Assembly: GCA_903879705.1 (NCBI GenBank)
Contig: CAIRMO010000145.1
Span: 1-64,000 of the forward strand
Length of the DNA stretch: 64,000 nt
Direction: 5' to 3'
Source of the DNA: an uncultured Candidatus Competibacteraceae bacterium
Lineage (GTDB): Bacteria > Pseudomonadota > Gammaproteobacteria > Competibacterales > Competibacteraceae
Each line of letters opens with the position of its first letter. Position 1 is the stretch's first letter. The notes under the pieces are model-generated. The model saw only the letters and a list, made by a program, of their open reading frames with translations. It was not told the DNA's origin and searched no databases. A program made the translations under genes and the position numbers. Below, piece by piece: positions 42,169-45,224 of this stretch.

Positions 42169-42558
42169 TCAGGGAACTGGCTTCGATGTGCCAGATTTTT
42201 TCAGCAGGTCGATGATTTCTTTTAGATATTGAATTTCCTTATCTTTATATTCCAGCAGTATGTGGTGCTTTTGCAATTCCATCACCAAGGTCTCTGGAGA
42301 CGTACTCAGTGTTTGTGAGATATTTTGGTAATTGTCTCCAAAAAAATACATGATATTTTTTTCACCGAAACTCATCAGTTCGGTGAGGTTTGTCTCAAAA
42401 ATCTTCGCAATTTGTTCCAATCGGGAAATCCGTACATCCGTCTCTCCCCGCTCGATGTTGGCATAGCCATTTGGCGACATCTCCAGTTTCTCGGCCATCT
42501 CCTCTTGAGACCAACCTTTGAGTTGACGCATAAAACGGATTTTGTCGCTTACATTCAT
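42169..42558 (-). CDS. XRE-family transcriptional regulator
   Basis: Regulator of 129 residues. The N-terminal Cro/CI-type helix-turn-helix (residues about 5-60) includes [20 protein letters not shown] and the recognition segment [16 protein letters not shown]-terminal coiled coil ([20 protein letters not shown]) probably dimerises it. AAGGGG precedes the ATG at 42558. It is divergent from the candidate peptide cluster, and a palindromic site lies just upstream of its start, so control of itself and perhaps of the cluster is likely but inferred. Confidence 0.85.
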
Positions 42559-42570
42559 GGCAAACCCCTT

Positions 42571-42598
42571 ACTGTGGATATACACAGTCTGACTGTGT
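42571..42598. promoter_or_regulatory. Palindromic operator candidate with three alternating half-sites
   Basis: ACTGTG (42571), ACACAGT (42582-42588) and ACTGTGT (42592-42598) form two overlapping dyads. The second is a perfect 7-bp repeat about a 3-bp centre. It lies 12 bases upstream of the XRE regulator ATG and 122 bases upstream of the peptide gene, well placed for autoregulation. Confidence 0.65.
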
Positions 42599-42720
42599 GG
42601 TTTCAGGTATTTGAGTTTAGCACAATCATTGGTGACAAGCGTCTTCCGCTAAGATAGAACGGGTGGTGCTATCTAGCACAATGTTGAATCTACCACCTAT
42701 AATTGCCCAAGGAGCAAACC

Positions 42721-42840
42721 ATGAGTTACCAAAAACCAACGATTGTTGCGATCAACAAGCCTACTGGCAGCTATGCTGCGGGATGTCCTCCGAAAGAAGG
42801 CAGTGGGTCTTTTTGTAAGCGATGTGATCGTGCACAGTAG
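42721..42840 (+). CDS. Candidate RiPP precursor peptide, 39 residues
   Basis: Small gene with an excellent ribosome site (AAGGAG, six bases before ATG). The peptide begins MSYQKPTIVAINKPTGSYAA and ends GCPPKEGSGSFCKRCDRAQ. Cysteines are at 22, 32 and 35, after a leader-like N-terminal half. It lies 80 bases upstream of a radical SAM/SPASM enzyme on the same strand, the usual setting for a ribosomally made, post-translationally modified peptide. The leader/core boundary and the modification are unknown; thioether or Cys-linked crosslinks are plausible given the Cys and SPASM domain. It could be a small unmodified peptide, but size, position and start signal argue otherwise. Confidence 0.75.
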   Translation: MSYQKPTIVAINKPTGSYAAGCPPKEGSGSFCKRCDRAQ

Positions 42841-42852
42841 GATTTAAACGGT

Positions 42853-42879
42853 GAGGTTCGTGGTTTCGCTACGAACCTC
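42853..42879 (+). promoter_or_regulatory. Hairpin between peptide gene and maturase
   Basis: GAGGTTCGT (42853-42861) pairs perfectly with ACGAACCTC (42871-42879) across a nine-base loop, 12 bases after the peptide stop. No T run follows at once. Such hairpins often leave the precursor transcript in excess over downstream enzymes by partial termination or processing. Confidence 0.7.
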
Positions 42880-42920
42880 ATATTTAGACCAATCTACATT
42901 TAGATATAGGAATACCTGCT

Positions 42921-44375
42921 ATGTTTTATCGACTCTGCAAAGACACGTTTATACGCAACATTCAAGGGTATGGTTATATCTCTTCTCAACTCACTCGTCA
43001 CGATCGAGTTTATGATCAGGCTGGAGCTTATTTCTTAATGGCGATTGATCGCACTCCACGTCATTTTGAAGAAATTTTAGAGCGGGCTTCTGCTTTTTTC
43101 ATTGATGCCCCAATTGGTGAACTCAATATTGACTTGCTTGCTTTTCTGGATGATCTTGAAGAAAATCAGTATATAGTAGCTGGCGAAGACGAAAAACAAC
43201 TCTCATATCGAGAGCCGCGATTTTCCTATGCAATGGCAAATCCTAAAACGGCTGTACACAATTTTCGTCAATCGACCGATAAACAATCCTACACGGATAC
43301 TGCTGATTTCTTTTATGGGCTTTTTCGTAACTCTCCCCATATTTTTTCAGCTCAGATTGAATTAACTAATCGTTGTAATGAAAAATGCCTCCACTGCTAT
43401 ATTCCACATGAACAGAAAGTGGAGACTTTAGAAACCCCGCTCATAGAGAAAGTTCTTCATCAATTAGCAGAAATGGGAACGCTCGGACTAACTCTTAGTG
43501 GTGGTGAAGTTTTTCTTCATCCTGATGTTGAGAAAATTCTCCAGTTAGCGTGCCAACTCGATTTCTCAATCAGCATCCTGAGTAACCTAACCCCGATGAA
43601 ATCTCGCCATATCTCTTTGCTGAAAGAGATTAACCCATCGCTAGTGCAGACATCGTTATATAGCATGGATGCTGATGAACATGATCGGATCACTCAACTT
43701 AAAGGGTCTCATACCAAAACCTTAAAAGCTTTGGAATTGTTGATAGAAAATGATATTCCAGTTCAGATTTCCTGTCCAGTGATGCGCACTAATCTTCATG
43801 CTTACCGATCAGTTCTGGAATGGGCGCAACGTCATCGCTGCAAAGCACAAACTGACTTTATTATGATGGCGCGCACTGATTTCTCTACTGAAAATTTGGT
43901 AGAACGAATCACACTGGAAGAGCAAGAATTATTGCTAAAAGACATTTTGGAAGTGGATATCGATTATGGTGGATTACTTGAGGAAACACATAAACTTAAA
44001 ACTATTGAAGAGCGTGCCAATGAACCTGTTTGTGGTGTAGCTGTAGATAATTTGTGCTTATCAGCCAGTGGCACTTTTTACCCCTGCTCAGGATGGCAAG
44101 GACTACCAGTCGGAGATGCCAGAACCCAAAATGTTCGTGATATATGGGAAAATTCCCCTCAACTTAATGAGTTACGACAAATCACCAAAGGATCATTTCC
44201 TCGCTGTCTTTCCTGTACTGAACAAGAATTCTGCGCAATGTGTCTAGTCCGAAATTTTAACGAAAGTAATGGGGATATGTTCAAAATTAACCCTCATTTC
44301 TGTGAGTCAGCAGCGCTTAACCGGAAATTAGTCAAAGAACATTATGCCAAGATTGGAAGATCTGACTACTTTTAA
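42921..44375 (+). CDS. Radical SAM/SPASM peptide maturase with PqqD-like N-terminus
   Basis: Enzyme of 484 residues. The first 100 or so look like a PqqD-type winged-helix peptide-binding domain (AYFLMAIDRTPRHFEEIL, LAFLDDLEENQYIVAGE). The radical SAM motif CNEKCLHC starts near residue 152, and TLSGGEVFLHPD supplies the GGE SAM-binding motif. The C-terminal SPASM region has many Cys (CGVAVDNLCLSASGTFYPC, CLSCTEQEFCAMC) for auxiliary 4Fe-4S clusters. The family modifies peptides at carbon positions. It lies 80 bases after the 39-residue peptide and overlaps the amidohydrolase by 32 bases. The DNA is AT-rich compared with the core genome. The subfamily was not identified. Confidence 0.88.
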   Translation: MFYRLCKDTFIRNIQGYGYISSQLTRHDRVYDQAGAYFLMAIDRTPRHFEEILERASAFFIDAPIGELNIDLLAFLDDLEENQYIVAGEDEKQLSYREPRFSYAMANPKTAVHNFRQSTDKQSYTDTADFFYGLFRNSPHIFSAQIELTNRCNEKCLHCYIPHEQKVETLETPLIEKVLHQLAEMGTLGLTLSGGEVFLHPDVEKILQLACQLDFSISILSNLTPMKSRHISLLKEINPSLVQTSLYSMDADEHDRITQLKGSHTKTLKALELLIENDIPVQISCPVMRTNLHAYRSVLEWAQRHRCKAQTDFIMMARTDFSTENLVERITLEEQELLLKDILEVDIDYGGLLEETHKLKTIEERANEPVCGVAVDNLCLSASGTFYPCSGWQGLPVGDARTQNVRDIWENSPQLNELRQITKGSFPRCLSCTEQEFCAMCLVRNFNESNGDMFKINPHFCESAALNRKLVKEHYAKIGRSDYF

Positions 44376-45108
44376 TCCTTTTATTATTTGGGATGCTCAT
44401 GTCCATATAGGACGATTTCAAGATATTTATTTTGACCCCATCCAAATAGCACTCGATCTAATCAGCTTAGGGGTACAACGATGGGTTGTTTCCTCCACTA
44501 CACTTTGTGAAGGAATAGGCAGCTTTAATGAATCACTTGGAGAATTTGATGCAATGGAGTCTGTTGCACTAGGCTGTGCTATCCCTTTTCTCTGGGTAGT
44601 TCCAGAAATGGTAGGTAAACTGGAAAATTATATTGAACCACGATTTCGGGGACTTAAGGTTCATGCTCGTGCCCATCGCTGGAGTCCTAATGGTGTTGCT
44701 CTTCAGTCTGTTGCCAGAATAGCAGCCGAAAGAAATATACCACTAAAATTGCATACTGGAGGACAATTACGTTGTGATGCTGGAGCTTATTATAAGCTTT
44801 GCCGTAATAATGTTAATACAAAATTTATTCTCGCTCATGGGCGGCCTGTAGATCAAGCATTGGTAATTTTAAAAGAATGTCCTAATGTTTTCGTCGATAC
44901 AGCTTTTATGCCTATGGATGATGTAGCTATGCTGGTTCGTTATGATATGAGTGATCGAATTTTTTTTGGTAGTGACTACCCACTTGATCAGTTATTTTAT
45001 CCTGATGAATCTTTGAAAACCCGATATCGCAATTCTTTAAAAGAATTACAGAATGTTGTTCCGAATACGATATTTAAAAATAATCTTTCACGATGCCTTT
45101 TTGAATAA
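44344..45108 (+). CDS. Metal-dependent amidohydrolase (TIM barrel) of the peptide cluster
   Basis: Protein of 254 residues of the amidohydrolase-2/ACMSD-like superfamily. Metal-binding elements are visible: WDAHVHIGRF near the start, LKVHARAHRW, KLHTGGQL, FILAHGRPVD and the late Asp in IFFGSDYPLD. It probably hydrolyses or decarboxylates a small substrate or peptide bond. Its start lies inside the end of the radical SAM gene, implying coupled expression. It could cut the leader, tailor the peptide or provide immunity; which of these cannot be told from sequence. Confidence 0.8.
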   Translation: MPRLEDLTTFNPFIIWDAHVHIGRFQDIYFDPIQIALDLISLGVQRWVVSSTTLCEGIGSFNESLGEFDAMESVALGCAIPFLWVVPEMVGKLENYIEPRFRGLKVHARAHRWSPNGVALQSVARIAAERNIPLKLHTGGQLRCDAGAYYKLCRNNVNTKFILAHGRPVDQALVILKECPNVFVDTAFMPMDDVAMLVRYDMSDRIFFGSDYPLDQLFYPDESLKTRYRNSLKELQNVVPNTIFKNNLSRCLFE

Positions 45109-45145
45109 TATGTCTAAATATTTTTTAACCAAGAGGATTTTTGCA

Positions 45146-45224
45146 ATGAAGAAGCAGGCCAAAATTATTTTATCAACTCTCAATCTTGGATTAGAACAGG
45201 TGGCAAAAATCAACCAAGCTGATT
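45146..45224 (+). pseudogene. Truncated AT-rich gene start at island edge
   Basis: About 26 codons with a good ribosome site (AAGAGGA) begin MKKQAKIILSTLNLGLEQVA. At about 45224 the base composition changes sharply to GC-rich and the frame continues only as unlike sequence to 45334. The start looks like the remains of a fourth cluster gene, or a very short second peptide, cut at the junction. On the other strand the GC-rich side begins with a short tail reading MYSGWELVYRAEW that ends at 45224, also a remnant. Confidence 0.55.

Follow-up and report, generated by a model that had tools for sequence, protein, structure and literature searches.

Results

Gene content of the cassette

The window, i.e. 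the whole stretch of 64,000 nt of an uncultured Candidatus Competibacteraceae bacterium that was analysed, harbours a compact gene group in which a short cysteine-bearing peptide precedes a radical SAM/SPASM maturase and a metal-dependent amidohydrolase, with a divergent XRE-family regulator on the left and the beginning of a third gene on the right (Table 1). A preliminary description, made from the sequence alone, had read positions 42169-45224 as a candidate RiPP cluster. The parts it named (peptide, ribosome-binding site, maturase, amidohydrolase and XRE regulator) were all located where it had placed them, and only the right end of its span had to be drawn in, since 45224 lies slightly beyond the block shared with a relative. 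No exporter is present in the cassette, as had been stated there.

Table 1. Positions and properties of the cassette features in the window.
Feature	Position	Strand	Remarks
Shared cassette block	42165-45178	.	80-81% nucleotide identity to G020 / JAUPTV010000099
XRE-family regulator	42169-42585	-	138 aa, HTH_3 E 2e-14; points away from peptide gene
Palindrome ACACAGTC-T-GACTGTGT	42582-42598	.	Candidate operator; left arm altered in relative
Palindrome GTGCTA-TC-TAGCAC	42666-42679	.	Candidate operator; fully conserved in relative
Ribosome-binding site AAGGAG	42709-42714	+	Peptide gene
Precursor peptide	42721-42840	+	39 aa, MSYQKPTIVAINKPTGSYAAGCPPKEGSGSFCKRCDRAQ
Constant precursor part	42721-42786	+	Leader + GSYAAGC, residues 1-22
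Variable precursor core	42787-42840	+	PPKEGSGSF-CKRC-DRAQ + stop
Strong RNA hairpin	42851-42881	+	Between precursor and maturase; z -5.35
Radical SAM/SPASM maturase	42921-44375	+	484 aa; N-terminal PqqD-like recognition domain
Metal-dependent amidohydrolase	44344-45108	+	254 aa, TIM barrel, Amidohydro_2 E 8e-13
Third gene (start)	45147-45178	+	118 aa, intact in relative (L018:1644-2000); cut off in window

The shared block was recovered from G020, a genome of the window's family, where the same locus (L018, JAUPTV010000099) is spread over two contigs and spans the 3' end of the XRE gene to the start of the third gene; L018, L040, L050 and L083 represent a single locus and entered the counts only once. 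With a GC content of 0.42-0.46 against about 0.60, the cassette forms a low-GC patch. It looks acquired from elsewhere, because in three genomes of the same genus the alignment with the window ends at 42073, next to the left-hand neighbour, a gene that we take to be gmhA-like, and the block was not found beside that gene. The position of the window's enzyme in the maturase tree, among enzymes of Fibrobacterota and Verrucomicrobiota, is in keeping with horizontal transfer. A phage-borne element was also considered and is unsupported, as no maturase relatives were found in IMG/VR viral contigs or in phage records.

The three Cys noted in the second half of the peptide occupy positions 22, 32 and 35, and the strong ribosome site ascribed to its gene is the AAGGAG 6 nt before the ATG. 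The precursor had not been assigned to any recognised family, and indeed no Pfam or NCBIfam model covers it. Compared with the nearest relative, 95% identity was found in the leader and 68% in the core. AAGC was set aside as a lipobox, since no hydrophobic signal segment precedes it.

Two palindromes, located between the divergent XRE and peptide genes, are possible operators. The regulator itself, which had been counted as part of the cluster, is conserved within the block in the relative (L041) and carries an HTH_3 match. The hairpin is likewise retained in L041 (z -4.11) with compensating changes; it may serve to keep the peptide in excess of the enzyme. A generic promoter scan yielded nothing above chance.

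Radical SAM/SPASM maturase

The SPASM Cys cluster reported for the maturase was confirmed by matches to Radical_SAM (E 3e-20) and SPASM (E 2e-7); C152, C156 and C159 of the radical SAM CxxxCxxC motif as well as C371, C389, C429, C432, C438, C441 and C461 of the SPASM region are invariant over the maturase family. The proposed PqqD-like domain holds with respect to the predicted fold, which resembles that of SuiB, CteB and SkfB, and fails with respect to the sequence match, which stays below the cut-off (E 0.006, 17.3 bits vs. 23.4). As the model of the maturase (pLDDT 87.8) matches CteB, SuiB and SkfB best, along most of its length, the N-terminal part is probably a leader-recognition domain despite the weak PqqD match.

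An enzyme-activating subfamily, which had been named as an outcome contrary to the RiPP reading, is not indicated: sulfatase-maturating enzymes rank below the peptide maturases in the fold list, models of anaerobic sulfatase-maturating enzymes are absent from the maturase's 25 best NCBIfam matches, and the cassette contains no sulfatase partner. No equivalog cut-off of a curated NCBIfam family was reached (best 95 bits vs. 500), and the scores remained below the cut-offs of both mftC (50.7 bits vs. 265) and pqqE (85.3 vs. 381); the sub-cut-off matches fall into heme, NirJ and MoaA families.

Precursor family and distribution

When genome contigs were scanned with the maturase, about 20 full-length or nearly full-length relatives with 38-58% identity emerged, and the small ORFs beside them constitute one peptide family. 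A wider look added members from Lentisphaeria and L017, and with further genomes included the family numbers 38 loci, distributed over Fibrobacterota, Bacteroidota, Verrucomicrobiota/Lentisphaeria and Gammaproteobacteria. The search for homologues next to similar maturases, suggested in the preliminary description, was thus successful, and the conserved peptide whose absence would have spoken against the reading does stand beside the homologous maturases. Since counterparts adjoin such maturases in four phylum-level groups, the window peptide is not a product of chance. In L017 the precursor is placed behind the maturase.

Throughout the family the leader ends in [GK]S[YF].AGCP, followed by a hypervariable loop of 5-23 residues, by C-x(2-6)-C and then usually by E or D. 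Ahead of GS[YF]AAGCP, of which KSYVAGCP in Lentisphaeria and ANCP in L128 are variants, the leaders carry Y-x-K/T-[PA] and A-K-N or similar.

The distribution is patchy: family members were present in 17 of 168 genomes of Fibrobacterota (phylum of G060), nine of 198 of Lentisphaeria (class of G074), two of 395 of Bacteroidota (phylum of G064) and one of 369 of the window's class. Many members belong to Fibrobacterota, Bacteroidota and Lentisphaeria associated with gut, rumen or termites.

Amidohydrolase

The TIM-barrel amidohydrolase, described as coupled behind the maturase, overlaps the maturase gene by 32 nt. It had been regarded as an uncommon partner, which is true, yet within the peptide family it is constant: it was found at 35 of the 36 precursor loci with enough DNA (40 loci overall), and at the sole exception, L007, the maturase also contains a stop codon. 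The closest structure to the model (pLDDT 91.9) is the uncharacterised 3cjp (Z 22.6), but lactonases, decarboxylases and isoaspartyl dipeptidases rank close behind, so that the fold does not tell the reaction. H19, H21, K105 (on strand 103-106), H137, H165 and D211 are invariant or nearly so, and these residues agree in sequence with the subtype-I binuclear pattern (HxH, strand-4 Lys, two further His, Asp). The strand-4 Lys is carboxylated in binuclear amidohydrolases.

A sister clade without amidohydrolase has another core. It comprises conjugative plasmids of Salmonella, E. coli and Photobacterium, all encoding one and the same peptide, MSYSKPTVLAKSSTYMAQCRPNSKPSGRPCNPPGPSGR, and also L130 and L108 (a Bacteroidota contig, peptide MTYLKPEILAQSTAQMADCSPKPSGRPCKPPGPGR); the amidohydrolase is therefore associated with the GCP...CxxC core. 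Complete RefSeq genomes of E. coli did not contain the plasmid version from that species. L127 falls inside the main clade and possesses neither a recognised precursor nor an amidohydrolase. That the amidohydrolase acts on the same peptide is highly probable.

Exchange of core and cargo in relatives

In Fibrobacterota and at most Bacteroidota loci, precursor and maturase are separated by one to three genes, here termed cargo, which differ at nearly every locus. They encode, among others, an FRG-domain protein that matches PDC-S15, a candidate defence family (E 6e-45), a second protein in which an SH3 domain is combined with weak similarity to PARP, one NusA N-terminal domain, and numerous proteins of 50-220 aa without assigned family. 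For most cargo proteins Pfam and PDB gave no match, and the 168 Fibrobacterota genomes contained no further copy of one cargo family. The slot is empty in the window and in its relative, as it is at the other loci with a short spacer (L004-L006, L008-L010, L110; Fibrimonas loci included), hence a partner gene is not universal.

Between close loci similarity covers the upstream region and the leader, breaks inside the precursor near the codons of the GC/P boundary, and restarts at most about 20 nt from the maturase start. This was measured in the pairs L112/L113, L111/L112, L111/L114, L118/L119, L120/L123, L012/L013 and L014/L015, not all of which are independent. Nucleotide identity amounted to 86-95% in the leader, 75-93% in the first 300 nt of the maturase and 51-57% in the core, the last being about the level of a gapped alignment of unrelated short DNA; blastn between the cargo regions of these pairs gave no match. 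Over all pairs, leader identity tracks that of the maturase, and loop identity is about 35% at every distance.

Shared cargo coincides with a shared core in only two cases, namely L112/L114 (core 88%, cargo 93%) and L115/L119. The precursor of L115 is broken by a deletion, its CLNCERT tail being kept in another frame, and cargo and enzymes persist nevertheless, a pattern that an immunity gene would allow. The cargo of L113 and L118 shows a distant likeness when judged by eye, yet the loops differ. Very probably, core and cargo are swapped as one unit in the relatives, where, rather than in the window itself, the exchange is seen.

Discussion

With a peptide family beside homologous maturases and an enzyme folded like peptide maturases, the reading as a RiPP cluster was upheld, and we have hardly any doubt that the cassette is a real one. 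The data directly support a precursor family with constant gene partners, the division of the precursor into a constant and a variable part, and the block exchange in relatives. It is very improbable that a spurious small ORF lies beside a general or enzyme-activating radical SAM enzyme and an unrelated amidohydrolase, for which the sub-cut-off heme, NirJ and MoaA matches might be quoted, given that the peptide recurs at 38 loci spread over four phylum-level groups, that the maturase reaches no NCBIfam cut-off and finds its best structural matches in RiPP maturases, and that the amidohydrolase is present at 40 loci.

We suggest the following course of events. The PqqD-like domain of the maturase would recognise the constant precursor part (leader and GSYAAGC), and the enzyme would modify, most likely cross-link, the conserved Cys flanking the hypervariable loop. 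The amidohydrolase would then hydrolyse a bond in the modified peptide, be it by trimming, release, or hydrolysis of a ring or side chain, and loop and tail would confer specificity on the product. In Fibrobacterota and Bacteroidota loop and tail are exchanged with the next gene or genes as one DNA block, so that every product would be accompanied by a partner of its own, for which a role in immunity or as an accessory protein is most likely. Competition among related bacteria is the most likely setting in which the product works, and the operon in the window may be under the control of the XRE protein.

Taken as a whole, a mobile RiPP cassette making a cysteine-modified competition peptide, with the neighbouring gene as immunity or accessory protein, is the explanation towards which we lean slightly. 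For its functional part, a competition toxin as product and cargo as immunity or accessory protein, the chances appear about even. Somewhat more tentative is the view of a polymorphic RiPP system, a counterpart among radical-SAM-modified peptides of the tip-immunity exchange in polymorphic toxins. In it the specificity tip would be replaced together with its cognate partner gene while leader, maturase and amidohydrolase stay constant, the last adding a new step. Several observations run against the competition reading: there is no conserved exporter, which is awkward for a secreted toxin; the window and the other short-spacer loci carry no partner gene in the slot; the FRG and weakly PARP-like cargo resemble effectors rather than immunity proteins; shared cargo is linked to a shared core in two cases only; and the relatives are drawn from metagenome assemblies among others.

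The same cargo leads to an alternative that we consider unlikely, an intracellular effector system in which the toxic or defensive activity would reside in the swapped cargo, with the modified peptide as its cognate ligand, inhibitor or trigger, e.g. in phage defence. The PDC-S15 match (E 6e-45) of the FRG-domain protein, the weak PARP-like similarity of another one, the missing exporter and the joint movement of core and cargo would all be accommodated. However, most cargo proteins are small and without any match, several loci including the window have no cargo in the slot, and retention of cargo beside the broken precursor of L115 is hard to square with an inhibitor peptide.

Equally unlikely is an insertion hot spot combined with a weakly constrained linker core, the peptide then being the precursor of a redox or metal cofactor like PQQ or mycofactocin and the amidohydrolase a processing enzyme. 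Although a single peptide with one or two radical SAM enzymes and a hydrolase resembles cofactor cassettes, and three invariant Cys at fixed relative places, loops ranging from 5 to 23 residues and the lack of an exporter would fit, in several pairs the break falls inside the precursor and not behind its stop codon, and the C-terminal tail behind the Cys is retained as a motif. The patchy, mobile distribution is, moreover, unlike that of a core cofactor, and the neighbourhoods show no conserved partner oxidoreductase.

If the preferred reading of a mobile cassette for a competition peptide is right, a RiPP family with an obligate amidohydrolase partner is gained, together with a maturase tolerating loops of 5-23 residues, of use for constrained peptide libraries, and a series of naturally occurring swaps of core and partner gene, from which partner functions and targets might be deduced. 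Such chemistry is, besides, little known from the Fibrobacterota, Bacteroidota and Lentisphaeria of gut, rumen and termite habitats. In the open literature no description of the peptide family was found, neither for GSYAAGCP nor for the combination of ranthipeptide, SPASM and amidohydrolase, which is no proof of novelty; two RiPP-mining papers, on Bacteroidales (PMC10352776) and on anaerobes (PMC4289311), contain neither the word 'amidohydrolase' nor the motif.

Comparison with known systems

PurAH of bottromycin (PMC10885120) sets a precedent for an amidohydrolase that acts in a RiPP pathway. PurAH/BotAH are likewise metal-dependent, but bottromycin relies on YcaO-type enzymes and a follower peptide, whereas the window's cassette has a radical SAM maturase and an N-terminal leader. 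Prochlorosins and cyanobactins (PMC10783134, PMC4663559) share the constant leader, the hypervariable core and a tolerant modifying enzyme; they use different enzymes, and their core diversity is not known to involve block exchange with an adjacent gene.

SkfB, CteB and SuiB (sactipeptide, ranthipeptide and streptide) also combine a Cys-bearing or short precursor with a SPASM maturase possessing an N-terminal recognition domain. From these the window's maturase differs by an identity of only 14-16%, another precursor, the obligate amidohydrolase and, in relatives, a core exchanged with adjacent genes. SCIFF ranthipeptides have six Cys in about 45 residues, as opposed to three conserved Cys in the cassette precursors. 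In a cluster of the Thiodictyon plasmid pTs417 (L074) distant relatives of maturase and amidohydrolase likewise occur together, joined by a second radical SAM protein, YcaO and TfuA, with an IS66 element just upstream and no precursor seen.

In polymorphic toxin/immunity loci (CDI, Rhs) a constant N-terminal part is combined with a variable C-terminal tip that is swapped with the following gene. In the relatives of the window's cassette, by contrast, the tip consists of a short, presumably modified peptide core (16-33 residues), a delivery apparatus is lacking and a partner gene is not found in every locus. The likeness, which is one of gene layout alone, lies in the exchange of tip and next gene in L111-L114, L118/L119, L120/L123, L012/L013 and L014/L015.

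Flanks of the cassette and a second low-GC stretch

A low-GC gene near the left end of the cassette encodes a 201-aa protein, and the PADLOC model matched by this protein is listed as CRISPR-associated. Directly to the right of the cassette sits a row of small genes, which have the look of toxin-antitoxin pairs; a DUF3368 protein and a UPF0175 protein are among their products. In the GC profile positions 6000-14000 of the window showed a GC content of 0.43-0.46 versus about 0.60 elsewhere in the window, and this stretch is probably a second foreign island.

Features flanking the cassette and in related loci
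Feature	Location	Strand	Remarks
201-aa protein gene	window 40258-40863	+	low GC; PADLOC PD_DExK, E 3e-54
Row of small genes	window 45308-46479	-	include DUF3368 and UPF0175 proteins
Free-standing NusA N-terminal domain	L013:2364-2882		in slot between precursor and maturase genes; E 1e-17
Two radical SAM proteins, amidohydrolase, YcaO, TfuA	L074:5641-11718		Thiodictyon plasmid pTs417

Related loci

The sister cassette, which lacks the amidohydrolase, occurs in Salmonella, E. coli and Photobacterium on conjugative plasmids (L071, NZ_CP030177.1; L072, CP099011.1; L073, NZ_CP150463.1), where it is adjoined by recombinase genes. Its 38-aa peptide is identical across the three plasmids and has a close relative on a Bacteroidota contig (L108); the peptide gene comes first, 75 nt from that of the maturase, which shares 34% identity with the window maturase.

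In Lentisphaeria and in part of the Fibrobacterota (L019, L020, L022, L109, L125, L126, L128, L129; L115, L116, L119, L121), an additional, more divergent radical SAM protein comes before or after the maturase, and in several Lentisphaeria loci a glycosyltransferase-9 protein comes after the amidohydrolase. In locus L013 the NusA domain protein adjoins an SH3/PARP-like protein and an unknown 511-aa protein; conceivably, the domain acts as a target look-alike giving protection. The Thiodictyon cluster (L074) possibly constitutes a combined radical SAM and thioamide pathway.
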